From the IMG/VR virus record IMGVR_UViG_3300009488_000040, positions 1-36,537 of that record: DNA of 36,537 nucleotides; one strand, 5' to 3'. Of this stretch, positions 7,561-35,915 are shown piece by piece. The DNA is from a virus. Both the position numbers and the translations under genes were made by a program. Numbering within the stretch: position 1 is the first letter of the stretch; the number at the start of each line of letters is the position of its first letter. Under the pieces are notes generated by a model, which did no database searches, was not told where the DNA came from, and saw only the letters and a list, made by a program, of their open reading frames with translations.

Positions 7561-7918
7561 AGGCATGTCGAGGACAGAGGCATATATGGATGCCTATGGT
7601 ACTGAAGACAGGGTTTACGCACGTACAGCGGCATCCAGATTGATGAATACAAATGATCGCGTCAGAGAAGCCATGCGGAATTATCTGGATGGAGCTATTC
7701 AGGAAGCCCAGGAGTTGTTGGAAGCCGACTCTACCGAGGCAGCAGAAACCTTGATAGAATTGAGAAAAGACGGAAGCAAAGAGGACGGGGTGAGGATCAG
7801 GGCTGCTCAGGATATTCTTGACAGGGCGGGATTGAAGCCTGTTGAGAAGGCGGAGATTTTTGGCAGCCTGGACATCAGCGTTGAATTACCGGAGGGCGTA
7901 ACACTTGCCGACATATAG
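7520..7918 (+). CDS. terS: Terminase small subunit
   Basis: The start is GTG at 7520, 9 nt after AGGGGGAGG (7502-7510). An in-frame ATG at 7493 (26 codons after the upstream limit of the frame) lacks a ribosome site. The 132-residue product opens NANQKKFVKNRIKGMSRTEAYMDAYG, then YARTAASRLMNTNDRVREAM, the DNA-binding helix-turn-helix pattern of Terminase_2-type small subunits. An acidic helical stretch for oligomerisation follows (AQELLEADSTEAAETLIEL and DGVRIRAAQDILDRAGL). It recognises the packaging site and presents DNA to the large subunit, whose gene overlaps its 3' end. Confidence 0.8.
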   Translation: MNANQKKFVKNRIKGMSRTEAYMDAYGTEDRVYARTAASRLMNTNDRVREAMRNYLDGAIQEAQELLEADSTEAAETLIELRKDGSKEDGVRIRAAQDILDRAGLKPVEKAEIFGSLDISVELPEGVTLADI

Positions 7919-9131
7919 CACAACCATAAACCCCATATTTGTGCCACATCTGAAATGCCACGACAGGTTCCTGGTTGAGTATGGCAGTGCAGGTTCTGGC
8001 AAGTCCCATTTCCTGGTTCAGAAGTTCATCCTGCGTATCATCAAGGCCATGAAGCAGAACTATCAAGAGTTCTTCCTGGGATTGAGAAAGACACAGCCAG
8101 CAGTCAGGAAGTCGGTGTTTGACGTTGTTGGTAACTACATCCGAGCGTTTGGCCTGTGGTCGCGAACTAAGGTCAACAAGACCACGCTTTCCTATACCTT
8201 CCCGGGCGGATCGCAATTCTTCTGTATGGGGATGGACGATCCGGAGAAACTGAAGAGTATCGAGAACCTGACCAGCGTTTGGATGGAAGAGACAACCGAG
8301 TTCTCCTATCCAGACTTCATGCAGGTAGACCTCCGCCTCCGTGGAGAGACCCCATCCTACAAGCAGATCGCCATGAGCTTCAATCCGATCCTATCAAACC
8401 AGTGGATTCCTGAAGAGTTCTTTGATGGCGACAACCCCAAGACCGACCTCAAAGACACCACCATAATGCGCTCGACATGGCGTGATAACCTGATGCTGAA
8501 GGACGAGGTGTATACCAGCCGCTTGACGGGACTCAAAGAGAAAGACGAAACGCTCTGGAAGATATACTCTGAGGGACTGTGGGGCGTCCTGAAGCATATT
8601 ATATACAGCAATTATGATACCATAGATCCGAAGGACTGGCCGGCGGAGTTTGACGATGTGTGGTATGGGCTGGACTTCGGCTTCAATCATCCGACAGCAC
8701 TGACGGAGATCGGAAGCCTGGACGAAGAGTTGTTCGAACGGGAGTTGATATATGAGTCCGGGCTGGAAACGCCAGACGTCATAGAGCGGCTTATCTTCCT
8801 TGAGGTGCATCCTTCAGCGCCTATATATGCAGATCCGTCACGACCTGACATCATCTCGTGGATTCACAATTCTGGGTTCAACATCAAGCCAGCCAACAAC
8901 GCAGTCAAGCCGGGGATCGACTTCGTGAAAACTCACCATCCAAAGATATGTGGCGACTCGACTAACATACTGAAAGAGAAGAAGACTTATAAGCTCAAAG
9001 AAGACAAAGACGGGAATGTATTGCCGGCGGAGGTGCCGGTGAAGATATTTGATGACCTGATGGATGCGGAGCGGTATGCAGTCTATACGCACCTCAATCC
9101 AGAAGGTCAATCGAAAGTATGGTTTTTGTAG
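7905..9131 (+). CDS. terL: Terminase large subunit (packaging ATPase and nuclease)
   Basis: The protein has 408 residues from a TTG start; GGAGGG lies 8 nt upstream and no ATG occurs until well inside the ATPase domain. Walker A is GSAGSGKS (27-34) and Walker B is SVWMEE (124-129), with E128/E129 as the catalytic carboxylates. The C-terminal RNase-H-like nuclease has aspartates in YGLDFGFNHPTA (D257), YADPSRPD (D310, D315) and FDDLMDAERY (D383-D387). This matches the Terminase_3 or PBSX-type family. It pumps DNA through the portal and cuts the concatemer. It overlaps terS by 14 bp and ends at the first full GGGGGAATGA junction. Confidence 0.95.
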   Translation: MPTYSTTINPIFVPHLKCHDRFLVEYGSAGSGKSHFLVQKFILRIIKAMKQNYQEFFLGLRKTQPAVRKSVFDVVGNYIRAFGLWSRTKVNKTTLSYTFPGGSQFFCMGMDDPEKLKSIENLTSVWMEETTEFSYPDFMQVDLRLRGETPSYKQIAMSFNPILSNQWIPEEFFDGDNPKTDLKDTTIMRSTWRDNLMLKDEVYTSRLTGLKEKDETLWKIYSEGLWGVLKHIIYSNYDTIDPKDWPAEFDDVWYGLDFGFNHPTALTEIGSLDEELFERELIYESGLETPDVIERLIFLEVHPSAPIYADPSRPDIISWIHNSGFNIKPANNAVKPGIDFVKTHHPKICGDSTNILKEKKTYKLKEDKDGNVLPAEVPVKIFDDLMDAERYAVYTHLNPEGQSKVWFL

Positions 9132-10317: not shown

Positions 10318-11736
10318 ATGAAGGGAATCATAACTTGGGCAAAAGATATCCTTTTCAATGAGTGGGGCGGAAAGCAAATACAAGGGGACTCTAGCACAGG
10401 GGAGTTGGGATGGATCAACATGGACACTGCTGGCCTTACTGGAACGAAGGTCACTCCCAGCAATTACGAGTCCCAAATAGCCGCAAATAAAGGCCCTGTG
10501 CATTCGTCTCTGTCACTCACTGCCAAAAAAGTGGGGGCATCAGAACTCAGGATATACAGACCCAAAGGCAAGAGCAGGAAATCCATCCTCTATGTGACGC
10601 GGACCAGGGCCGTCCCGGAGCCACGAAGGACTGAGCTGTTGGAAAAAGCCGCCCCTGGCTCAGTCCTCTCGTTGGCTGATGACGTGGAGGAGGTTGTTGG
10701 CGGTCACAGGCTCATTGACGTGCTGACAAACGTGAACGCCTTCTATGATGCCTATCAGTTGAAGTATCTGACGGCAGCATATTTAGGTCTGACAGGGAAC
10801 TGCTACTGGGTGCTAATCAAAGACAGTCTTGGGATCCCGAACGCCATCTGGATAGCACCTGCGGAATACATGAGAGTGAAGCCTGATAAGAATTTGTTTG
10901 TGGGTGGATACGTTTACAAGCGGGGCAGCCAGACAAAGACGTTCGCTCCTGACGAGGTTGTGCATTTCAAGAGCCCGGCACCCGGAGCGAAGTTTCAGTT
11001 CTATGGACGCGGCGATCTTATGGGCGCTGCCGATGACTTCAACCTGCTCCAGAACATATATGCTTTTGAGGCGGCTATATTCAGGAACGGGGGGATACCA
11101 GCAACGTTTTTGAGTACCCAGGGAAGTTGGACGGAAAAGGAGAAGGAGTCCTATCTGAAGCAGTACAATGAAAAGTTTCGAGGCCCCAATAAAGCGGGCG
11201 GCACAATGGTCGGGGAAAACGTCAAGGTTGAATCGTTGGGCTTGTCTCCCAGAGAGATGGCCTACCAGGGCAGCCGAATACATTTGAAGGATGATATTGC
11301 CGCGAACATGGGCGTCCCGCCTGCCATGATAACCAACAAGATAAATAGCAGGATGGCGCTGGATGCAAGCATGACGCAGATCGAGATGTTCAGTATCGCC
11401 CCAATGCTCACTTTGATACAGCAGGCGTTGAACGCCCAGATGATTCCACTCTACAAGAAAGACCCGATTTATGTTGAGTTTGATGATCCGGTATCTAAGG
11501 ACAAAGAGTTTGAGCTGAAGCAGGATACGAACTTTGTGGAGTCTGGAATAGCCACCAGAAACGAGGTAAGAAAGAAACGGGGGCTTGAACCGATAGAGGG
11601 TGGCGACGTGGCTTATATTAACATGAACCAGGTGCCTCTGGGAACTGAAGTCTCCAGGCAGCCAACACAGACGCAGATTAGCGACATGGCAACAAAGGCA
11701 TTGGATGAAGCAAAGAGCAGAATGTGGGGGGAATGA
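10318..11736 (+). CDS. Portal protein (HK97 family)
   Basis: The protein has 472 residues; the ATG at 10318 follows GAGG with 7-nt spacing. Diagnostic stretches of the phage portal family are visible: a substrate-like region with YLGLTGNCYWVLIKD and IWIAPAEYM, then PDEVVHFKSPAPG, GRGDLMGAADDFNLLQNIYAFEAAIFRNGGIP, the MAYQGSRIHLKDDIAANMGVPPAMI segment typical of HK97-type portals, and MTQIEMFSIAPMLTLIQQALN. Twelve copies form the vertex ring through which DNA is packaged and the tail joins. The C-terminus ends in MWGE-stop at a junction repeat, which shows that the repeat has grown into, or been recruited as, the end of a core structural gene. Confidence 0.93.
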   Translation: MKGIITWAKDILFNEWGGKQIQGDSSTGELGWINMDTAGLTGTKVTPSNYESQIAANKGPVHSSLSLTAKKVGASELRIYRPKGKSRKSILYVTRTRAVPEPRRTELLEKAAPGSVLSLADDVEEVVGGHRLIDVLTNVNAFYDAYQLKYLTAAYLGLTGNCYWVLIKDSLGIPNAIWIAPAEYMRVKPDKNLFVGGYVYKRGSQTKTFAPDEVVHFKSPAPGAKFQFYGRGDLMGAADDFNLLQNIYAFEAAIFRNGGIPATFLSTQGSWTEKEKESYLKQYNEKFRGPNKAGGTMVGENVKVESLGLSPREMAYQGSRIHLKDDIAANMGVPPAMITNKINSRMALDASMTQIEMFSIAPMLTLIQQALNAQMIPLYKKDPIYVEFDDPVSKDKEFELKQDTNFVESGIATRNEVRKKRGLEPIEGGDVAYINMNQVPLGTEVSRQPTQTQISDMATKALDEAKSRMWGE

Positions 11737-12312: not shown

Positions 12313-12420
12313 ATGTGGCTGTATTGGCTCATAGCAATAATCTCATGGCAATGTGTTGGCGGGTATCTCATGGGCAGCTACCTCAAGCATTGTCGTGAGT
12401 ATTGTGAGAAGGGTGAATAA
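12313..12420 (+). CDS. Membrane microprotein, 35 aa
   Basis: The exact junction repeat at 12300-12309 precedes an ATG at 12313 that opens 35 codons, ending in TAA at 12418-12420. The product begins MWLYWLIAIISWQCVGGYLM and ends HCREYCEKGE. It is a single hydrophobic helix with a short Cys-containing cytoplasmic or periplasmic tail. Its stop overlaps the start of the next gene as TAATG. The ribosome site, coupling and membrane-helix composition support a real gene despite its size. It resembles phage one-helix exclusion or lysis-modulating proteins only in form. Confidence 0.6.
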   Translation: MWLYWLIAIISWQCVGGYLMGSYLKHCREYCEKGE

Positions 12421-13238
12421 TGGGCTTTGCGATACAGATACAGCATGAAATCATCAAGGGCGTTGCAGACGAATTGGAGATGACTCTGAGATGGAATCGC
12501 TTTGCCAAGACTACAGCCCAGCAGGAGCGCAAGTTCAAGCCGGTTCTCAGAGAAGCGTTTACTAAGCAAGAGACTGACGTACTAAAGCGTGTTAAGAAGA
12601 ACCCGCCCCCAGAGAAAGCGCCATCGGACATATATCAGCCCTGGTTGTTCGACCCTGATGAATGGCAGTTGATCCTTGAGGGGGCTGCAAAACCGTTTGT
12701 AGAGACCTCGATGGGGGAGGGCTGGGTTGCCAGCGTGAAGGATATTAACCACGCGCTGGGGGTAACGTTAGCCCTGGACTTCGACTTGAAGGATCCCAAC
12801 ATAGCGAAGATTATCAAAGACAAGCTCCACAAGTTCTCATTCGAGGTGAATAAGGAGACCACGAGGCTATTAAAGGCAGAGTTCGCAGAAGCCATCAAGG
12901 ACGGTGACAGCATCCCGGTTATCGAGCAGCGAGTCAAGAAAGTGTTTGGCTTCACGAAGAAGTCCAGGGTCAATACCATAGCCAGAACGGAGATTGGCGG
13001 CGTCTACAGTGCGGGGAATTTGGAGGCTATGGTTGCCAGCGGAGTTGTGGATACGAAGAAATGGATCGCCACGAGGGACAACCTGACGAGGGACACTCAC
13101 AGAGCTATTGACGGCGAGGTTGTTCCGCTAAAGGATGAGTTCAGCATTGGCGTTCGCTTTCCCAGGGATTGGAGCGGGCCGGCGGCTGAGGTGATAAATT
13201 GCAGGTGTTCAATGATGGCTCAGGATTTCGTAATATAG
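12420..13238 (+). CDS. Phage head morphogenesis protein (Mu F / SPP1 gp7 family)
   Basis: The 272-residue minor head protein overlaps the upstream stop by one base. The family's C-terminal signature is plain: VNTIARTEIGGVYSAGNLEAM, then WIATRDNLTRDTHRAIDGE, then FPRDWSGPAAEVINCRCSMMAQ, with the invariant His and CRC motif. Family members are packaged in few copies, often bound to the portal, and help prohead assembly or DNA ejection. The N-terminal 140 residues are helical and variable. The position between portal and protease is standard. Confidence 0.9.
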   Translation: MGFAIQIQHEIIKGVADELEMTLRWNRFAKTTAQQERKFKPVLREAFTKQETDVLKRVKKNPPPEKAPSDIYQPWLFDPDEWQLILEGAAKPFVETSMGEGWVASVKDINHALGVTLALDFDLKDPNIAKIIKDKLHKFSFEVNKETTRLLKAEFAEAIKDGDSIPVIEQRVKKVFGFTKKSRVNTIARTEIGGVYSAGNLEAMVASGVVDTKKWIATRDNLTRDTHRAIDGEVVPLKDEFSIGVRFPRDWSGPAAEVINCRCSMMAQDFVI

Positions 13239-13919: not shown

Positions 13920-16451
13920 ATGGCAGTAGTATTGGATAAGATGTTCGCGCAGACAAGGATTGAGAAAGGGTCGTTTGATGACGACGAACGAAGTTTTATA
14001 GCATGGGCGTCCCGTCCAGTGCTGGATCGTGACCATGAAATTATCGCTCATGACGCATGGGATTTGGAGAACTACGAGAAAAATAAAGTCCTTCTATGGG
14101 CGCATGACTACACGCGGCCGCCCATTGGGAAAGTGCTATGGCTGAAGCCACAGAAGAACGGCCTGAAGTTCAAGCCGCAGTTTGCAGATACAGCAATGGC
14201 GAAGGAAATCTATGAGCTATACAAGGACGGTTTCATGAGTACGTTTTCTGTGGGCTTCATCCCTAACGAGTGGAATGATGACGACGAGCAAGCAAAAGAC
14301 GGGGAGGCATTCAACAGGCCGCTCAGGACTTACACTGACGTGGAACTTCTAGAAATCTCCTGCGTACCCGTTCCTTCCTGTCCCGACGCTGTGGCAGAGC
14401 GATATGCAAATGGAGAGATAAGAACGAAAGGATTGAAGACAGCCATCGAGCATTCGGTTTCCAAAACCGTGATCCCCTTCAAGAAACACAGCCTGGCTCC
14501 AGAAGACACAGCATGGAACGGGCCGGCGGAGAGATCTGCCGCAGAGGTATCCGATCTCAAGCTCATGAGTACCTGGTACGACTCTGAGAATGCAGACGTG
14601 AAAGGATCATACAAGCTCCCACATCACAAGGCCAGTGGGCACAGCACAGTATGGCGTGGAGTTGCAGCCGCTATGGTCGCTCTATTGGGAGGCCGTGGCG
14701 GGGTTGCTATACCTTCAGGCGACAAGAAGGGCGTCTATAACCACCTTGCGAAGCATTACAAGGAATTTGACAAGCCTGTGCCGGAGTTCAAGGAATACGA
14801 GGACGCTGAACTGAAGGCACTCTTCAATGAAGAGGAATTGCGTGAACAGGTTGAAGATACGGAAACTATAGAGACGTCCGCCGGCGACGTTGCTGGAGGC
14901 TGGGAGCCTGTTGAGATAGAGGAGCGCGACCCCATAGAAGCCATGAGGCGCGAAGGGCTTGAGAAGGCTGAGGATGGTTTTATCCCGGTATCTGTGAGCA
15001 TGTGGAATGAGATGTGTTCAACCGTGAAGGTTGCCAGTGCAAAATCAGACGCCTATCTCCAGCAAGTGTATGGAGGCATTACTCCGCCAGATGGGAAGTG
15101 GAATAAAAGCCTGTCTGACGCATTCGACCTGCCGGTTCTGGAGGACGTAACCTCGTCGTTCAAATACACGCTATATGCTGATTATCTGAGTTGTGAGATT
15201 AAGAACATATACATGAACAGCTACGAGATTCCATCCCCATTGCTGGGTTCTTATATGGATGCTATCCAGAGACTGACTGCTGATTTCACCGTCCACGATA
15301 TTCGGCGCTTTTCCAGTAAAGGCGAAGAGACACCCCCTATCACTGATAAAATACAGTTGACCCGGGATGAGTATGGCGAATATCTCGTTAGCGGTACAAA
15401 GTTCTGCGAGGCTGATGGCTATAATATCATTCTAAACTTTTCGGCGAGTTGGTATGGCCTGGACTTCAGTGTGATTACGTCCGCAGAAAAAGCAGACGCA
15501 AATCGTGAAATTCTGAATGGGATTCATAAGGACGCGTCTGGAAACGTCATGATGAAGGGCGAGAAGTTTTCCCTCTCCGGTGAGTTCCTGGACCCCACGG
15601 ACGAGGTATGGGATGACGTTGTAATACCAGACGAAGACAAGACGGCTATCCGTAAGTCTATGAGCGTTCTGGAAGACGGCAAGAGCCGCGGGCTACTGAT
15701 GGTCGGCCCTCCAGGAACTGGCAAGACAATGACCGGGCGCATAATGATGAACGTCACAGAGTCAACCTACATCTGGGTAAGCTCCAGGGACTTCGGCTAT
15801 TCCGCTTCGTCGCGGATCATCAACCTGGCTTTCAACATGGCAAGACGGCTGGCTCCCACGATCCTATTCATGGAGGACATTGACGGGTGGCTGGGCGGCG
15901 GCTCTACTGATGCTATGAAGACAGAGATGGATGGCATTCGCGCCACAAAGGGGGTTATGAGCGTACTCACGACAAACTTCCCCCAGAGATTGCCGAAGGC
16001 CTTGATAGATAGGCCGGGACGTTTCCACCATGTCATACTCTTTGATCTCCCCGATGTTAAGCAGAGACATCAGATGCTTGCAACATGGACGGATGGCGTT
16101 GACAAAGAAACTCTGATCGACATAGCGAAAAAGACGGAAGGATTCTCAGGAGCGCATATACGGGAGCTGGTTGACTACGCTGAATTTATATCTGACGAGG
16201 AGGGCATCCCTACAGGGAAGGCTCTGGTTCGAAGCATGGAGAAATTGCAGGAACAGCGCGAACTCGTTGCCAGTTTCGATACTGAGAAAGGCCCGGCTCC
16301 TGATATGATCGAATACACCGACGAGGATTTTGACCTCATGGTTCAGCAGGAATTGAAAATAAAAAAGCAAGCCGAGGCGATAAAATCCCTTCGGCACGAT
16401 ATTGCAGTCCTCAACGCGAAAATGAGGGTTGCGCTAGGCGGGACTGGATAA
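13920..16451 (+). CDS. Prohead protease fused to an AAA+ ATPase
   Basis: This is an 843-residue fusion. Residues 1-165 are an HK97-type prohead protease: WASRPVLDRDHE, catalytic H62 in LLWAHDYTRPPIGK, S110 in MSTFSVGFIP, then ELLEISCVPVPS. Residues about 198-285 (AWNGPAERS, GSYKLPHH, GGVAIPSGDKKGVYNHLAKHY) are a domain often attached to phage proteases or minor head proteins. An unassigned region spans 330-580. Residues 590-780 are an AAA+ module: Walker A GPPGTGKT at 596-603, Walker B ILFMEDID at 648-655, sensor-1 LTTN, the RPGRF arginine-finger region at 698-702, and sensor-2 GFSGAHIRELV. The C-terminus is a helical coil. The protease should cut head proteins during maturation. The ATPase may unfold or feed substrates, as in FtsH or Lon. 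The frame is continuous with no sign of a sequencing join. Confidence 0.9.
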   Translation: MAVVLDKMFAQTRIEKGSFDDDERSFIAWASRPVLDRDHEIIAHDAWDLENYEKNKVLLWAHDYTRPPIGKVLWLKPQKNGLKFKPQFADTAMAKEIYELYKDGFMSTFSVGFIPNEWNDDDEQAKDGEAFNRPLRTYTDVELLEISCVPVPSCPDAVAERYANGEIRTKGLKTAIEHSVSKTVIPFKKHSLAPEDTAWNGPAERSAAEVSDLKLMSTWYDSENADVKGSYKLPHHKASGHSTVWRGVAAAMVALLGGRGGVAIPSGDKKGVYNHLAKHYKEFDKPVPEFKEYEDAELKALFNEEELREQVEDTETIETSAGDVAGGWEPVEIEERDPIEAMRREGLEKAEDGFIPVSVSMWNEMCSTVKVASAKSDAYLQQVYGGITPPDGKWNKSLSDAFDLPVLEDVTSSFKYTLYADYLSCEIKNIYMNSYEIPSPLLGSYMDAIQRLTADFTVHDIRRFSSKGEETPPITDKIQLTRDEYGEYLVSGTKFCEADGYNIILNFSASWYGLDFSVITSAEKADANREILNGIHKDASGNVMMKGEKFSLSGEFLDPTDEVWDDVVIPDEDKTAIRKSMSVLEDGKSRGLLMVGPPGTGKTMTGRIMMNVTESTYIWVSSRDFGYSASSRIINLAFNMARRLAPTILFMEDIDGWLGGGSTDAMKTEMDGIRATKGVMSVLTTNFPQRLPKALIDRPGRFHHVILFDLPDVKQRHQMLATWTDGVDKETLIDIAKKTEGFSGAHIRELVDYAEFISDEEGIPTGKALVRSMEKLQEQRELVASFDTEKGPAPDMIEYTDEDFDLMVQQELKIKKQAEAIKSLRHDIAVLNAKMRVALGGTG

Positions 16452-16598: not shown

Positions 16599-17972
16599 AT
16601 GCCACAAGCAACACCGGAAGAACTGAAAAAGAAACTTGATGAGCAGGTTGATAAACTTAATAACAAGGAATACGAGACGCCCACTGAACTCATGGAAATC
16701 AAAAAGAAAATGGGCGTCAATACCGACGAGTTGTCACCCGACTCGATAGACCTTCTCGCTGCGGACGTTGATGAGATGAAGAAATCCCTCGACGACCTCA
16801 TTGAGAAGCAGAAGGAAGCTACTGGCGACCTCCCTGTGAAAGAGCCAGACCTTCTGGAGGGTGCTCATCTTGGCGGACTGTTCAAGGAACTTCGCGAAGC
16901 TACGCATTACGGCAAGGCTGAAGGGCCGATACTCAGGTCAATGGAATTGACGCCCGATCAGCTAAAATCTGATGGCGTGGTAGTCCCTGAGAAGCTAATG
17001 AGGGCATTTTGGAACTCCGCGCTTAAGACTACTGGCTATCTGGAAGAGGGTCAGGGGTCGTTAGGCGGCTTCACAGTCGCTGAACAGTTTGTGCCAACAC
17101 TGTTGTCGATCCCACTCCAGGAGCCAATCGTCCGGTCAAGAGCCTGGAACATACCTACAACCACCAACGTCATCAAAATCCCCCGCATAAATGACACCAC
17201 CCATGCCGAGAATGTGTATGGCGGTGTTACGGGAAACTGGACGGCTGAGGGCGCTTCAATAAGCGTCTCGAACCCGGCATTTGCTCAGTGTGTCCTCATG
17301 GCAAAGAAGCTGGCACTTCTGACTTATGCCAGCAATGAGCTGCTTGAGGATAACGCTGTGGGCCTCAACCAGGTTCTGACGAGGCTGTTCGCGGAAGCTC
17401 TGGGGTGGTTTGAGGATAAGGCGTTCATCAAAGGCTCCGGCGTGAATGAGCCGCTGGGTCTCCTGAATGCTCCCTGTCTGGATAGCGTAAGCATCGCAAC
17501 TGGCTCGGTGTTCCGCATCGAGGATGCTTGCAAGATGTATGCGAATCTGCTTCCAGGGTCTGAAGCCCGGGCAATCTGGATCATGAACCCCAGCGTCAAG
17601 CAAGCGTTGCCTCAGATGCTCACTCTGGGAAGTGCTACCGCAGGCGCTCCAAACATCTGGTATCCTGCTGCCCTGAGCATCAAGGATTCTCCAGAACCGT
17701 GGAGGCTCCTGGGCATTCCCATCTTTTGGTCAGAACATCTCGCGGCATTGGGTACTGACCAGGACGTAATTCTCACTGACCTGAGCTATTACATCCTGAT
17801 GAGCAGGCAAGGCATCAGGGCGTCTGTATCCACAGAATCGCGCTTTGCCAACGATGAGACTGGCTATAAGCTGACTGAGCGAACTGATGGGCAGCCGTGG
17901 CCATCTTCGACACTAACACTGGCGGATGGTGCAACCACCGTCTCCCCCATTGTGGCTTCTGATCATGCTTAG
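16599..17972 (+). CDS. Major capsid protein 1 (HK97 fold, with delta domain)
   Basis: The protein is 457 residues; AGAGGTGA at 16585-16592 lies 6 nt upstream of the ATG. Residues 1-135 are highly charged and helical (ELKKKLDEQVDKLNNKEYE, DEMKKSLDDLIEKQKE), the scaffolding delta domain that HK97-type proteases remove. The mature part begins near KTTGYLEEGQGSLGGFTV (143 onward) and has the HK97 features: N-arm, long helix region with LTYASNELLEDNAVGLNQVLTRLFAEALGWFEDKAFIKGSG, and the C-terminal P-domain end with LMSRQGIRASVS and ERTDGQPW. Hundreds of copies form the shell. It has no serine tail, unlike its paralog downstream. Confidence 0.93.
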   Translation: MPQATPEELKKKLDEQVDKLNNKEYETPTELMEIKKKMGVNTDELSPDSIDLLAADVDEMKKSLDDLIEKQKEATGDLPVKEPDLLEGAHLGGLFKELREATHYGKAEGPILRSMELTPDQLKSDGVVVPEKLMRAFWNSALKTTGYLEEGQGSLGGFTVAEQFVPTLLSIPLQEPIVRSRAWNIPTTTNVIKIPRINDTTHAENVYGGVTGNWTAEGASISVSNPAFAQCVLMAKKLALLTYASNELLEDNAVGLNQVLTRLFAEALGWFEDKAFIKGSGVNEPLGLLNAPCLDSVSIATGSVFRIEDACKMYANLLPGSEARAIWIMNPSVKQALPQMLTLGSATAGAPNIWYPAALSIKDSPEPWRLLGIPIFWSEHLAALGTDQDVILTDLSYYILMSRQGIRASVSTESRFANDETGYKLTERTDGQPWPSSTLTLADGATTVSPIVASDHA

Positions 17973-17979: not shown

Positions 17980-18004
17980 CTCAACAACACAGGGGGTGAG
18001 TTTT

Positions 18005-19216
18005 ATGACTATGAAATTTGGCGAGTTTCTAAAGAATGTTTTTGAATACTCTAAAGGCAGCACTGACGCATCCAAAGCCTTAGAGGGCTATAGAGCTAAG
18101 ACCACCGGATACTTAGAGGAGGATCAAGGCTCGATGGGTGGGTTTACAGTGCCGGAGGAGACGTACAAAAGCATCATGGATCTCGCTTTGGAGAATAGTA
18201 TAGTCAGACCCCGCGCAACGATTGTGCAGATGGAGAGCAATGTGATCGGTATCTCCAGAATCGTAGATACTACACATGCGTCAAGTGTGCTGGGAGGCGT
18301 CACTGTAACGTGGACAAACGAAGGCGACGCTATGAGCGAAAGCAACCCGGCACTCGGGCAGCTAGTTTTAAGAGCGAAGGGACTGAAGGGACTCTGCTAC
18401 ACCTCCAGCGAATGGCTGGAGGATTCGGGAGTTCCACCGGAGGATCTGCTGAGACAAGCCTTTGGTCAGGCCATTGGCTTCTATGCAGATGACGAGTACA
18501 TTAACGGAACTGGGGTCACGAGGCCGCTGGGTATTCTAAACAGCGGTGCGCTGATCCCTGTGACCAGAGCCGGAACCGCCTTAGCGTGGGGAGACATAGT
18601 GAATATGGACGCCAGGCTGCTCCCCAGGTCGGAGAAGAAGGCAATCTGGGTCATGAACTCGGAGGCAAAGCCCAGTATCTATGGGCTGTCACCGGGTTCC
18701 GGCTGGGTTTCTGAAGGGAAGATACTCAACAAGGACTATGAAATCTCTGAAAAGCTGCCAAGCTGGGGTCATTCCGGCGACGTTCTTCTGGCAGATTTCA
18801 GTGAGTATTGCATAGGAGACAGGGACTTGATTATCCAGGCGTCCAGCGCGTATGCGTTTGCCACTGATAATATCGCCTGGAAGTTCATATTGAGGACTGA
18901 CGGAGCGCCAATTCCGGCGGCTCCGGTGACACCCAAGAACGGGTCAAGAACGCAGTCGCCGTTCATAATTTTGAGCGGTGGAGTGAGTTCTTCATCCGGC
19001 AGCGAATCTTCAAGCTCGACAAGTGAGAGTTCGTATTCGCTGAGTTCGTCATCGAGCAGTTCGTCAACATCTTCGAGCTCCTCCTCCTCGTCGTCATCCA
19101 GTTCTTCGGAATCGGTTTCAAGTTCCTCCTCATCGAGTTCAGAATCGGTGTCGAGTTCTAGCAGCTCGTCCTCCAGCTCTTCAAGCTCGTCTTCAAGTTC
19201 TAGCGCAGGGGCATGA
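18005..19216 (+). CDS. Major capsid protein 2: HK97-fold paralog without delta domain, with serine-rich tail
   Basis: The ATG at 18005 follows GGGGG by 8 nt (an in-frame GTG at 17996 overlaps that site), giving 403 residues. From residue 32 it is clearly homologous to capsid 1: KTTGYLEEDQGSMGGFTV, IVDTTHASSVLGGVTVTWTNEG, YTSSEWLEDSGVPPEDLLRQAFGQAIGFYADDEYINGTGVTRPLGILN. Only about 31 residues precede the homology, so the roughly 140-residue scaffolding domain of capsid 1 is missing. The C-terminus (327-399) is a tract with 62 serines in 73 residues, then AGA. It may co-assemble with capsid 1, or form vertices as gp24 does in phage T4, and display serine tails outward. Location and stoichiometry are inference. 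Confidence 0.9.
   Translation: MTMKFGEFLKNVFEYSKGSTDASKALEGYRAKTTGYLEEDQGSMGGFTVPEETYKSIMDLALENSIVRPRATIVQMESNVIGISRIVDTTHASSVLGGVTVTWTNEGDAMSESNPALGQLVLRAKGLKGLCYTSSEWLEDSGVPPEDLLRQAFGQAIGFYADDEYINGTGVTRPLGILNSGALIPVTRAGTALAWGDIVNMDARLLPRSEKKAIWVMNSEAKPSIYGLSPGSGWVSEGKILNKDYEISEKLPSWGHSGDVLLADFSEYCIGDRDLIIQASSAYAFATDNIAWKFILRTDGAPIPAAPVTPKNGSRTQSPFIILSGGVSSSSGSESSSSTSESSYSLSSSSSSSSTSSSSSSSSSSSSSESVSSSSSSSSESVSSSSSSSSSSSSSSSSSSAGA
18986..19204 (+). repeat. Serine-rich tail tract of capsid 2
   Basis: There are 73 codons, 62 of them serine, broken by Gly, Thr, Tyr, Leu and by Glu-Ser-Val units (SESVSSSS occurs twice). All six serine codons are mixed without a short DNA period, so selection acts on the amino acid sequence. 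The long acidic frame on the opposite strand is its shadow. Confidence 0.9.
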
Positions 19217-19948: not shown

Positions 19949-20322
19949 GATACAGAGTATATCACGGCGGAGAGATGATATATCCCGAAGCCCACGAAGG
20001 CTATGCGGTATATCAAGACGGCAAGGTTGTAAAAACAAAAACAGTGGCTAGTGGAAGGGTATATATAGATGGGGTTGCGAAGGGCGCGTTCACGATGCTT
20101 TCCCTGGACAAGAAGGACAAGAATGGCAAAGAAATCTTCATCGACGACATTCTCAAAGCAGAGGGCGAGAAAAAGTTGATCCATCTGGAGTCAATGGGAA
20201 GCATGGATGTGTCAATAACTTATAGCGGTATTTACTTGGGTGCGTTTGAGTCAAGCGAGCTTGAGGTCGTTGGCAACATCTATGAAAATCCTGAACTCAG
20301 AGAGGGGGCTGGAAGAGTATGA
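19945..20322 (+). CDS. YopX-like protein
   Basis: The 125-residue protein overlaps the previous stop as ATGA. The second half carries the YopX signature: LDKKDKNGKEIFIDDILKAEG, then the C-terminal VVGNIYENPEL. YopX proteins are beta-rich, common in phages of Firmicutes and others, and of unknown function. The N-terminal half (MRYRVYHGGEMIYPEAHEGYAVYQDGKVV) is an additional strand-rich segment. It ends against the first glycosyltransferase gene (ATGA overlap). Confidence 0.75.
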   Translation: MRYRVYHGGEMIYPEAHEGYAVYQDGKVVKTKTVASGRVYIDGVAKGAFTMLSLDKKDKNGKEIFIDDILKAEGEKKLIHLESMGSMDVSITYSGIYLGAFESSELEVVGNIYENPELREGAGRV

Positions 20323-21512
20323 ATTTACTCTGGCTCTCAGCCACTCCTGAATGCCACTCAGGATATGGCAACGCTACCAGGCACATGATTAGCTGGCTCA
20401 CAAAGCAGGGGCATTGGGTAGCTGCTGCAACGAAACATCCGGTTTCTATCAGATGGCGGATGTGGAACGTTCCAGGGACGGACAAACAGAGGCCGATACT
20501 GGCAGGGACTAACGTAAAAGTCATCAATAATGACATAATGGACAAATGGAAGCTCGACTGCTGTATAAGCATGTATGACGTATGGGCACTAAAGACTCCC
20601 ATCCATCGGCACATCCCCTGGATACCCATAGACACTCAGAACGTGAGTGAGAAGATCGTCAAGGTTGTGAAGGATACGCCCATGCAGATCGCCATGACTA
20701 AGCATGGGAAGAGGGAACTTGAGGCTAACGGCCTGTCTCCAGAATATGCTCCCATCGGCTTTGACCCTGAAGTATTCCATCCTAAGCCGGACAAGGCGCA
20801 GGAGTTCAGAGAGACACTTCTCTGGAAAGACGGCCTGAAGCCTGACGACATGTTTCTGATAGGATCGGTCGGCTTGAACTATCCAGACGACCGGAAGGGG
20901 TTTGTGATTCTCTTGCAGGCGTTCAGGGAATTCAGAAAGAAACACCCGGAGGCGCGGCTGTTCCTGCACACCCAGGCTCGTAAGGATCAGGGCACCAACT
21001 ACGCAAAGATTGCTCAAGAGCTTGGGGTCATGGACTACATCGGCTGGCCAGACCAGGCTCAGTTTTGGCTGGGCCAATACACCGCAGAAACTTTAGCCAG
21101 TATGTATTCAGGGATGGACGTGTTCTGTCTCCCAACGAGAGGCGAAGGATTTGGAATGCCTGTTGTGGAGGCTCAGGCGTGCGGAACTCCAGTCGTGGTG
21201 ACTGAGAACACCAGCGGGCCGGAACTCACAAGAAGTGGATGCCTGATCCATACTGATAGTGATGACTATGTATATACAGGCCTCAACACATGGCGGGTGC
21301 AGCCCAAGCCCAGTTCTGTAGTTCGGAGTTTGGCTCATGTGCGCTCGTTGACATGGATAGGGATGCGAAAGGAAATCTCCGCCGGTGTTCAGGAATACGC
21401 ATGGCCTAACGTCTGGGAGAATCACTGGGATCCAATCATTAAGAAGATCGAGGGAATGCTGCCAATAGAGGGGGAAAGCAATGGCAACAGTAGCGACGAC
21501 GAAGAAGTTTAG
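20319..21512 (+). CDS. GT4-like glycosyltransferase (GT-B fold)
   Basis: The protein has 397 residues and a typical two-Rossmann GT-B architecture. The N-terminal acceptor domain has the Gly-rich opening SGYGNATRHMISWLTKQGH. The C-terminal donor domain has IGSVGLNYPDDRKGFVILLQAF, then LASMYSGMDVFCLPTRGEGFGMPVVEAQACGTPVVVTENTSGPEL, which contains the EGFGMPVVEA (E-x7-E) nucleotide-sugar motif of GT4. It should transfer a sugar from a nucleotide donor to an acceptor in the host cytoplasm. It lies among virion genes, 1.1 kb after the serine-tailed capsid, so virion protein is a likely acceptor; host surface glycan or lipid are alternatives. The last 31 bases overlap the next gene. Confidence 0.88.
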   Translation: MNLLWLSATPECHSGYGNATRHMISWLTKQGHWVAAATKHPVSIRWRMWNVPGTDKQRPILAGTNVKVINNDIMDKWKLDCCISMYDVWALKTPIHRHIPWIPIDTQNVSEKIVKVVKDTPMQIAMTKHGKRELEANGLSPEYAPIGFDPEVFHPKPDKAQEFRETLLWKDGLKPDDMFLIGSVGLNYPDDRKGFVILLQAFREFRKKHPEARLFLHTQARKDQGTNYAKIAQELGVMDYIGWPDQAQFWLGQYTAETLASMYSGMDVFCLPTRGEGFGMPVVEAQACGTPVVVTENTSGPELTRSGCLIHTDSDDYVYTGLNTWRVQPKPSSVVRSLAHVRSLTWIGMRKEISAGVQEYAWPNVWENHWDPIIKKIEGMLPIEGESNGNSSDDEEV

Positions 21513-27208: not shown

Positions 27209-27433
27209 ATGTCAACGGTATTGACCATTGAGGATGTAAGAAAGGCATTGGATAGTCTTATTGAAAAAAAACAGACCTTCGTGACTCCAAGACAGATGCT
27301 CTCTTTGTCTGGAATCACCTTCACAGATGAGCAATGGGAAAAACTGCAAAGTGACTGGCCAGATATGATGAAGGATGCCTGGGAGAGGGGGAAAGAAGAT
27401 GACGCTCGCAGCAGCAATGATGGTCAGGAATGA
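27209..27433 (+). CDS. Hypothetical protein, 74 aa
   Basis: The ATG at 27209 is 7 nt past GGGGGA (27197-27202). The product is helical: LTIEDVRKALDSLIEKKQTFVTP and RQMLSLSGITFTDEQWEKLQSDW. Its last 35 bases overlap the glycosyltransferase gene, whose ribosome site (GAGGGGG near 27385) is inside it, so translation of the two is likely coupled. No family is recognised. Confidence 0.5.
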   Translation: MSTVLTIEDVRKALDSLIEKKQTFVTPRQMLSLSGITFTDEQWEKLQSDWPDMMKDAWERGKEDDARSSNDGQE

Positions 27434-28598
27434 GGAGGTCTTACTTCCAGGATGTTTGAAATCCATACTGCCTGTGATCCCGAAAGAGCGGATCGCCGTT
27501 GTGGACACAGGCTCCACGGATAAGACACTTGCAGTGGCGTCAGATTTCGGGGTGAAGCTCTATCATCCCGGAATGGCAGACGTTCACGCGTGGCAGCATG
27601 ACTTCAGCTTCCACCGTAACCAGTCTTTTGATTATGTGTCTGAAATCCCTGGGGTGACTCACATCCTGGTTATAGATGCTGATGAGCGACTGAAGCCGGA
27701 GTCGGCAGGGAGGGTTCCATTCCTGCTGGACTTCATGGACAACAACGACCTCAACTTCGCCATCATGCAGATTGAGAATGAGCTGAGTGACGGCGGTATG
27801 GGTCTCCACATAATGCCCCGCATCTTCAGGAAGGGAACCGTGATCTTTCAGGGAGTGGTCCAGGAACAGCCCATCACAACAGGCAAGGGATATATGTCGA
27901 ATCTCTGTATCTCTCATCTTGGCTATGCGCTGGACGCGGAGGCTATGGATCAGAAGCTGAAAAGGCGGGAGGATCTGTTAAGGATGGCGCTGGACAAAGA
28001 GCCGTGGAACTCGCTTTACAGTCAAAGCCTTATCAAGAATCTGAGAGCGCAAGGGCAGTGGAAAGAATGTGCAAAGCTGGCGGATGAGCTGCTGGCTGGT
28101 GATACAGAGCTATCCCGGGCGCAGGAGCAAAGGGCCTCAGTGGATCGTCTGATAGCAGGAATGGCTACGGAAGACCCGCTGGCCTTCGTTACAGCTAAGA
28201 GGCTGGCAGAACAATTCCCTGAGAATCTGGACATTCAATACTATCTGGGTTCGCTGTGCCTGGATAATGATGATTTGGATGGCGCTATTGAAGCTATCAA
28301 GAGCTATCTTATGATCAGATTCACCATCCAGACCGTAGGGTTGCATGAGCCTCTGGTTCTGAACACATGGGGTTTGCAAGTTCTGGCATTCAATAATCTG
28401 GGGTTTGCTCAATGGAAGAAGGGCGATCTCATAGGCGCGCTGGAGTCTATGTTTTTAGGGAAGAGTTTGAACGGGAACATGGAAGGTCTCAATGAGAACA
28501 TGAGGCAGATAGTTAAGACACTGTTATTCAAAGAAGGGGAGATGCAAAAGTATTTCCCAGAATTGATGGGGGATTCGGGGGAAGAGGGAGTCGATTAA
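27399..28598 (+). CDS. GT2 glycosyltransferase with TPR-like C-terminal domain
   Basis: The protein has 399 residues from the ATG at 27399, 8 nt after GAGAGGGGG. The GT-A catalytic domain (1-200) has MMVRNEEVLLPGCLKSI, VVDTGSTDKTLAVA, the metal-binding DAD in LVIDADERLKPE, and a conserved QHDFSFHRNQSFD segment. This pattern belongs to the TPR-containing GT2 group that includes SunS, which glycosylates a peptide. The C-terminal half is helical repeats (NSLYSQSLIKNLRAQGQWKECAKLADELL, LDIQYYLGSLCLDNDDLDGAIEAIKSYL, NNLGFAQWKKGDLIGALESMF), suited to holding a polypeptide acceptor. It ends 1 bp before the serine-tailed tail tube gene, the strongest positional hint to its substrate. Confidence 0.88.
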   Translation: MTLAAAMMVRNEEVLLPGCLKSILPVIPKERIAVVDTGSTDKTLAVASDFGVKLYHPGMADVHAWQHDFSFHRNQSFDYVSEIPGVTHILVIDADERLKPESAGRVPFLLDFMDNNDLNFAIMQIENELSDGGMGLHIMPRIFRKGTVIFQGVVQEQPITTGKGYMSNLCISHLGYALDAEAMDQKLKRREDLLRMALDKEPWNSLYSQSLIKNLRAQGQWKECAKLADELLAGDTELSRAQEQRASVDRLIAGMATEDPLAFVTAKRLAEQFPENLDIQYYLGSLCLDNDDLDGAIEAIKSYLMIRFTIQTVGLHEPLVLNTWGLQVLAFNNLGFAQWKKGDLIGALESMFLGKSLNGNMEGLNENMRQIVKTLLFKEGEMQKYFPELMGDSGEEGVD

Positions 28599-34390: not shown

Positions 34391-34932
34391 GAGCCATATC
34401 ATTCATATTGGACATTAAGAAAGAGGTGGGGGATAAGCCGCTGGTGGGCGTTGAGATAGGCGTCTATCGCGGCGAACATGCAGAACTGATGCTTCAGCAT
34501 CTGAATATACAAAGGCTCTATCTCATTGATCCATACGTGGATAACGATTCGGACTTTGAGGGGCACATGAAATCCAGCGTTCCGGCAGCGAAGGCGATAG
34601 CCAGGAAGCGATTGGAGCAGCCAGAGCCGTATGAGCAAATCATCTGGATAGAAAAGAAGTCGGAGGATGCTCTCCGGGAAGTTTGCCTTGCGCTGGACTT
34701 CGTATACATTGATGGGAACCACAGCTACAAGTATGTGATGCGGGATATGATATATTATGGACGAATGGTCAAAAGAGGCGGCTGGATCGGGGGTCATGAT
34801 TACATGATGCGCCGCAGCCCGCGTGTAGAGGTGAAGCAGGCTGTTGATGATTATGTTGTTCTGGCTATGACAAAAGGTCACGAGCTTCACGTTGGGGAGG
34901 GCAAGTTCCCAGACTGGTGGTTTAGAAAATGA
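34387..34932 (+). CDS. Second SAM-dependent methyltransferase
   Basis: The protein has 181 residues, with the same fold class but clearly different sequence from the preceding one: motif I LVGVEIGVYRGEHAELML, acidic strand LYLIDPYVD, then LDFVYIDGNHSYKYVMRDMIYYGRMVKRGGWIGGHDYMM. The IDGNH and GGHDY elements place it in the class I group often found in glycan-modification clusters. Both ends overlap neighbours, so three genes are translated as a unit. Confidence 0.85.
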   Translation: MRAISFILDIKKEVGDKPLVGVEIGVYRGEHAELMLQHLNIQRLYLIDPYVDNDSDFEGHMKSSVPAAKAIARKRLEQPEPYEQIIWIEKKSEDALREVCLALDFVYIDGNHSYKYVMRDMIYYGRMVKRGGWIGGHDYMMRRSPRVEVKQAVDDYVVLAMTKGHELHVGEGKFPDWWFRK

Positions 34933-35915
34933 GAATCCTATTCATCAGCGACCCGCTATTTACGGAGAGTGCGATCTATAACGAAGAGGGGTACGCGAAT
35001 CTTCCCATGCTCCAGTCTATGCCATGCGATCTTCTCGTGGCTACTACGGCAGATCAGGCGCGCCAGAGTATAGATAGCGCGGACGTTGTTCTGCTGGAGG
35101 CCATGCGCGGTGTCGCTTTCCGGGATGAGCTGAGCTTCATCAACAAGAGCAATGCCTTTGTGGGCGCTTTCTACTGTGACGTATGGCGCGCACCGTTCTG
35201 GTATCAGTCTGAGATTAGCATAGACCTCAACATCTGCGTCTACCGGAAAGGGGCGTTAAGGGTTCATACTTCGTGGACTGAAGGCGCAAACTTTCTGTGG
35301 CTGCCTCCCAGGGTGAAAACTGTTGACTACGTTGAGAAGCGCGATGTTGATATAGTAACCTGGGGAGCTATGGGTCGCGAGTATCCTTTCAGGAACTTCG
35401 CATACCAGGCATTGCTTCAGCAGTTGATAGGCGGTCCGCGCAGGAATGCCCAGCCTTTGAAGCTGGAACCAGGGTTGACTGAGAACACCATCCAGATCCG
35501 GAGCGAGAAGTATAAATGGCACAGCATAACTGGGAAGAGATTGCAGGGGCCTTTCTACGGCTCTAAGCTCATGGCCGCATTAAGCAGGTGTAAAGTCTGT
35601 CCTACTGGCCCGGTCCTTCAAAACGGTGTAGGGTCTGTGGTGGCTCGCTTCTTTGAGAATGCTGCTGCTGGGCTGGTATCTATCACTTCGCAAATGGACG
35701 ACGCTGACGCTCTCGGCTTCAAGCATGGGGAGAATATATGGTTCTCCAGCGGGGAGCGATTCTTCAGCGACCTTGATAGGCTTTTATTTGTGGATACGGA
35801 TCTGCGCTATGCAATATCAGAGAGTGCCCATCAGCTAATATCGGACAGGCACTCAGTTGAGGTGCGGGCGCTGGAGTTATACAACGCTCTGAAAGAGAAA
35901 ACGGGAGGAATATAA
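34929..35915 (+). CDS. Glycosyltransferase, GT-B type (CgeB-like)
   Basis: The protein has 328 residues. The N-terminal Rossmann-like part has MRILFISDPLFTESA and ADVVLLEAMRG. The C-terminal part has the diagnostic end of CgeB-type or Glyco_trans_1_2 enzymes: YGSKLMAALSRCKVCPTGPVLQNGVGSVVARFFENAAAGLVSITSQMDDADALGFKHGENIWF. There the FENAAAG segment and the following acidic loop bind the nucleotide sugar. It should add a sugar to an acceptor in the host cytoplasm. It belongs to the methyltransferase-glycosyltransferase operon immediately after the serine-tailed tail protein. Confidence 0.8.
   Translation: MRILFISDPLFTESAIYNEEGYANLPMLQSMPCDLLVATTADQARQSIDSADVVLLEAMRGVAFRDELSFINKSNAFVGAFYCDVWRAPFWYQSEISIDLNICVYRKGALRVHTSWTEGANFLWLPPRVKTVDYVEKRDVDIVTWGAMGREYPFRNFAYQALLQQLIGGPRRNAQPLKLEPGLTENTIQIRSEKYKWHSITGKRLQGPFYGSKLMAALSRCKVCPTGPVLQNGVGSVVARFFENAAAGLVSITSQMDDADALGFKHGENIWFSSGERFFSDLDRLLFVDTDLRYAISESAHQLISDRHSVEVRALELYNALKEKTGGI

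Follow-up and report, generated by a model that had tools for sequence, protein, structure and literature searches.

The window, a 36,537-nucleotide stretch of viral DNA (positions 1 to 36,537 of IMG/VR record IMGVR_UViG_3300009488_000040), carries at positions 13,920–16,451 a single open frame of 843 codons with zero internal stops, whose product carries an S78 protease and, after it in order, an accessory domain, a middle domain with no family name and an intact AAA module. The gene sits in the head block, preceded by portal (from 10,318) and MuF (from 12,420) genes and followed by two major capsid protein (MCP) genes (from 16,599 and 17,996), with a minor-tail/tape-measure gene further along the window. 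The features, each with its evidence, are as follows.

7905..9131, plus strand: terminase large subunit (Pfam)
10318..11736, plus strand: portal protein (Pfam)
12420..13238, plus strand: MuF-like head morphogenesis protein (profile matches)
13920..16451, plus strand: fused prohead protease / middle domain / AAA ATPase ORF, 843 aa (Pfam, family HMM)
13938..14441, plus strand: S78 (HK97-type) protease domain, catalytic H62 and S110 (Pfam PF04586, family HMM, 49/52 conservation)
14490..14834, plus strand: facultative accessory ('WYDSENAD') domain, residues about 191–305 (family HMM)
15096..15599, plus strand: middle domain, residues about 393–560, part of the predicted YjoB/Bcs1-like fold (fold comparison; no sequence families)
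15600..16289, plus strand: AAA ATPase domain and lid, residues about 561–790 (Pfam PF00004, AF2 model)
15705..15728, plus strand: Walker A, GPPGTGKT, residues 596–603 (sequence and alignment)
15867..15884, plus strand: Walker B, FMEDID, residues 650–655, in E-D order (sequence and alignment)
16008..16025, plus strand: arginine-finger motif, DRPGRF, residues 697–702 (sequence and alignment)
16320..16433, plus strand: C-terminal helix, residues 801–838, at the position of the relatives' scaffold-like tail (family HMM, AF2 model)
16599..17972, plus strand: MCP1, Phage_capsid with a long N-terminal region (Pfam)
17996..19216, plus strand: MCP2, Phage_capsid without the long N-terminal region and with a Ser-rich C-terminal tail (Pfam)

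Elsewhere in the window we note a gene for a DDE transposase close to the left end of the contig (262–1707), three genes resembling glycosyltransferases that lie inside the structural block or past it (20319–21512, 27375–28598 and 34929–35915) and, at 18970–19213, a long Ser-rich end of MCP2 that is missing in other second capsid proteins.

The initial annotation had proposed that one uninterrupted frame joins an HK97-type protease (H62, S110) to an AAA+ module, and Pfam bears this out, with Peptidase_S78 matching residues 39–160 at 52.5 bits (cut-off 21) and AAA matching residues 592–709 at 68.9 bits (cut-off 21.2). Its division of the protein calls for two corrections: the accessory domain exists, but it is facultative, being common, by family HMM, to the AAA-less proteases L003 and L004 and placed after the AAA module in L029 and L037, and residues about 393–560 form a further conserved domain that had not been separated from the AAA module. 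For this middle domain, searches of Pfam, PHROGs and PDB sequences returned zero families. The scaffold-like tail of relatives (GRVLSxKNR...) was not detected in the window protein by family HMM, and no membrane helix was seen ahead of the middle domain on reading its sequence. Internal starts that might yield a separate AAA product are accompanied by weak Shine-Dalgarno matches only.

Alignment of 52 family members reveals that the AAA residues K602/T603, E652-D653, sensor-1 N686 and R698/R701 are invariant (52/52), while the protease H62 and S110 are each kept in 49 of 52; judged from these counts, the predicted protease and ATPase activities are both under selection. The AAA motifs named in the initial annotation are thus present, with the qualification that Walker B reads F-M-E-D, in E-D rather than the usual D-E order. 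The aromatic-hydrophobic-Gly pore loop 1 is missing from the window protein and from 47 of the 52, and present in five.

A first scan of viral contigs with the whole protein recovered L001 and L002, which have identical domain order at about 40% identity. Two IMG/VR scans with middle-plus-AAA profiles, in which the AAA motifs were the only criterion and near-duplicates were removed, yielded at least 80 distinct proteins with the module among the matches listed, most of them on contigs that are fragments. Sixty-eight are fused in the order protease–AAA and one in the order AAA–protease (L197); in seven (L050, L051, L054, L056, L082, L087 and L177) AAA has a gene of its own, immediately preceding that of the protease; in two (L009 and L018) the protease lies just upstream in another frame; and two are cut by the contig end. 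Among the matches listed with readable context, all 78 therefore lie at an S78 protease, 69 fused and nine adjoining, the proteases of L050, L051 and L056 having been detected by a more sensitive search and Pfam. Generic AAA proteins formed a distinct and far weaker group in these scans, mostly matched over the AAA part alone. A physical and functional tie between the ATPase and the prohead protease is thus very likely.

Because the fusion recurs in dozens of independent contigs, we regard it as a family and not a chance event or chimera. An assembly join, frameshift product or annotation artefact might be suspected from L009 and L018, which break frame inside the fused gene; given the clean single frame in the window and the 68 different relatives, drawn from many samples, that carry the fusion among the matches listed, we consider the chance of this negligible. 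The initial annotation had itself raised the prospect of relatives with the domains on separate genes and a frameshift here: seven relatives do carry adjacent genes, AAA then protease, but the window has no frameshift and the fused form is dominant.

Several members depart from the common layout. The breaks in L009 (1116–1162) and L018 (1601–1670), which fall inside the middle domain or between protease and AAA, leave the fused gene as overlapping frames and may be either frameshifts or sequencing errors. In L197 (4142–7354) AAA, S78 protease and Phage_capsid domains share one open frame of 1071 codons; its first 25 codons contain no ATG, GTG or TTG, so a frame break upstream is possible. The separate AAA protein of L082 (5281–7140) has an N-terminal, sub-threshold match to a DNA ligase domain (24.2 bits; cut-off 26.2).

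No protein of this architecture turned up in 50,697 phage records when they were searched by tblastn with five full-length queries, or when the separate AAA gene of L082 served as the query. A genome collection gave no match to the window protein alone; a profile search of it returned one fused member, on a Cloacimonadota MAG contig (L090), and three generic AAA matches. No paper describing a protease–AAA fusion was found in the literature searched, most subscription journals lying outside that search. Missing from the phage records under five queries and from the descriptions searched, the family appears to occupy a blind spot of cultured-phage work.

Structure prediction offers a view of what the module might do. 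In a full-length AF2 model the protease and residues 412–790 are predicted with confidence, and the stretch separating them is disordered; modelled separately as a monomer, the middle domain and AAA reach a mean pLDDT of 89.7. Foldseek comparison of this model with the PDB places YjoB and Bcs1 in the top 11 positions, aligned over both domains (about 370–425 columns), and VIA-align likewise ranks YjoB first (Z 21.8, rmsd 8.7, 354 aligned residues), with proteasome and p97 chains aligning over fewer residues, mostly in the AAA part. The large rmsd to YjoB (about 8.7 Å) is perhaps due to domain orientation. A middle-domain profile retrieved no YjoB or Bcs1 chain up to an E value of 5, and no Pfam family; the assignment is therefore one of likeness of fold, not of membership. 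On the predicted model, the middle domain and AAA fold like YjoB and Bcs1 and probably work like them, and the fold together with the missing pore motif favours a chaperone of the cavity type over an unfoldase that threads its substrate.

This bears on the likeness to FtsH or Lon drawn in the initial annotation, under which the AAA module would unfold scaffold or capsid segments and thread them into the linked protease. The module's sequence does place it in the same classical AAA class (Cdc48/FtsH matches), and it is covalently joined to a protease, but the nearest fold over both domains is that of YjoB/Bcs1, the pore loop is absent as described above, neither an FtsH nor a Lon protease domain is present, and near relatives manage without AAA; moreover, known S78 prohead proteases cut open segments without ATP. 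The likeness thus finds no support here, and we consider proteolysis of this kind improbable.

The tandem MCP genes of the window had suggested another role, in which AAA would be required for two capsid proteins to co-assemble and the fusion would co-occur with tandem capsid genes. After deduplication, the AAA loci include 18 with a single MCP and 15 with two; another 17 two-MCP loci are AAA-less. On an MCP1 tree of 68 loci, a quick tree whose deep branches are weak, the two-MCP state changes once and the AAA state at least 14 times; in the 12 independent pairs that differ in AAA, both partners always have the same MCP number. The tree refutes the expected co-occurrence, and a co-assembly requirement is barely credible.

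Close pairs of loci differ in whether the module lies between their conserved parts. Both flanks of L021 match those of L105, and the 1.33 kb holding AAA in the former corresponds to 57 bases in the latter. Between L019 and the AAA-less L109, DNA identity of 91–93% starts just past AAA and covers both MCP genes; AAA itself falls outside the match. The MCP1 proteins of the two are 95.5% identical; the AAA-less L010 reaches 70% identity to L002 in the best segment. Where the tail is recognisable, AAA usually lies ahead of a scaffold-like tail common to AAA-less relatives. A search for a second AAA copy elsewhere in 21 AAA-less records, mostly fragments, found none, while recovering three of three positive controls; missing from close relatives and without a second copy in these records, AAA appears not to be essential for this head type.

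Over 35 fused loci, conservation is stronger in the AAA module (mean identity 48%) than in the protease (36%) or MCP (30%), and the module's distances correlate less well with those of the protease (rho 0.42) and MCP (0.35) than the latter two do with each other (0.74). The window illustrates this: its AAA module is nearest, among the listed matches, to those of one-MCP phages (L031 and L012), and its MCP1 is nearest, among these AAA-bearing loci, mostly to those of two-MCP phages. As judged by these comparisons, the AAA module is a swappable cassette, exchanged partly independently of MCP and protease.

A further module comes and goes at this place: a zinc-ribbon-like insert (CECIKCG...GGEMRR.ERPGPGKE) lies between protease and tail in AAA-less proteases (L004, 3–980; L011, 923–2296; L105, 1344–3371), and also near the tail in some AAA-bearing proteins. 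Upstream of the AAA-less protease of L011 is a MuF-like head protein (2–784) whose C-terminal part looks ADP-ribosyltransferase-like by eye.

Since among the matches listed the module occurs only with a prohead protease, fused in either order or adjoining, the most likely place of action of the ATPase is on the prohead or within it. We give nearly an even chance to its being a chaperone in an accessory role, driven by ATP and brought into the prohead through fusion to the protease: a role as chaperone for folded head proteins fits the YjoB/Bcs1 fold, and an accessory role follows from the near relatives that do without AAA. The position of the module between protease and scaffold-like tail, within a portal–protease–MCP block, also suggests such a chaperone. 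Under this reading, a true S78 prohead protease would carry a YjoB/Bcs1-type AAA+ chaperone module, whose AAA and middle domains would assemble into a ring driven by ATP and enclosing a cavity for substrate. Delivery of the ring to or into the prohead would fall to the protease part, in most relatives together with the scaffold-like C-terminal tail; there the ring would spend ATP on holding, rearranging or clearing folded head proteins around the protease step. Scaffold regions, MCP or portal are candidate substrates, and no unfolded chains would be threaded into the protease. The module would remain an accessory, many close relatives presumably maturing their heads without it.

The same mobility and high conservation admit a different account, the chief rival and a form of the cleaved-off ATPase raised in the initial annotation, in which AAA rides the protease and scaffold into the prohead as packaged cargo, is cut free by the protease, remains in the head, enters the next host with the DNA and acts on a host target, for instance in defence or takeover. 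High conservation combined with poor tracking of protease and MCP history fits a target outside the head equally well. Repeated gain and loss on the MCP tree, exchange partly independent of a less conserved carrier, a location flanked by two parts expected inside the prohead, and the coming and going of other domains at the same place would all suit such cargo. The seven members in which AAA is a separate gene yet still beside the protease, an arrangement unneeded for cargo, argue against it, and no delivered-effector family was recognised; we regard it as possible but rather unlikely. The chaperone and cargo readings both fit the same facts, especially the mobility and conservation of AAA.

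Maturation of the prohead ahead of packaging is regarded as an ATP-independent process. Coupling a motor to the protease would give maturation an energy-driven step, or else reveal a route for loading an ATPase into the virion; either way, these phages may draw on ATP in a previously unseen way when they mature capsids or load cargo. Returning to the chaperone, the broader proposal that an ATP-consuming chaperone step is built into the prohead protease of a large group of uncultivated tailed phages, as a cassette moving between different capsids, is one we hold tentatively, at somewhat less than an even chance. The near-identical pairs with and without AAA constitute a natural experiment.

Among known systems, the window protein shares with HK97-type prohead proteases (Peptidase_S78, PF04586; PHROG 80) the catalytic His and Ser, a gene position between portal and MCP and, in most relatives, a scaffold-like C-terminal tail, but differs in the middle domain and AAA inserted between protease and tail. 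Fusions of prohead proteases to scaffold or MCP are already known (NF045541, PHROG 617); their partners are structural, with no ATPase among them, unlike here. FtsH and Lon likewise join an AAA module and a protease in one chain, and the FtsH AAA can be aligned to that of the window at about 28% identity, but the window protease is unrelated (S78), the order is reversed (protease before AAA), the threading pore motif is lacking and the N-terminal domain is another. Pfam found neither the M41 zinc protease domain of FtsH nor the Ser-Lys protease domain of Lon in the window protein, and the FtsH NCBIfam model scores 83 against a cut-off of 600. Bcs1, the mitochondrial AAA translocase of the folded Rieske protein, belongs to the next-best Foldseek fold family over both domains, at a sequence identity of about 16%, and its Walker B is likewise in E-D order; it is membrane-anchored and heptameric, whereas the window protein has no visible membrane helix. 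Bcs1 is described as a mover of folded proteins (PMC11143374, PMC12219900). The best structural match to the middle domain and AAA is Bacillus subtilis YjoB (PDB 7w42, 7w46; Foldseek E 4e-19), with only about 20% identity and middle domains that sequence searches do not relate. YjoB reportedly prevents aggregation; it is encoded by the host, stands alone and has no protease, whereas the AAA module of the window is fused to one.
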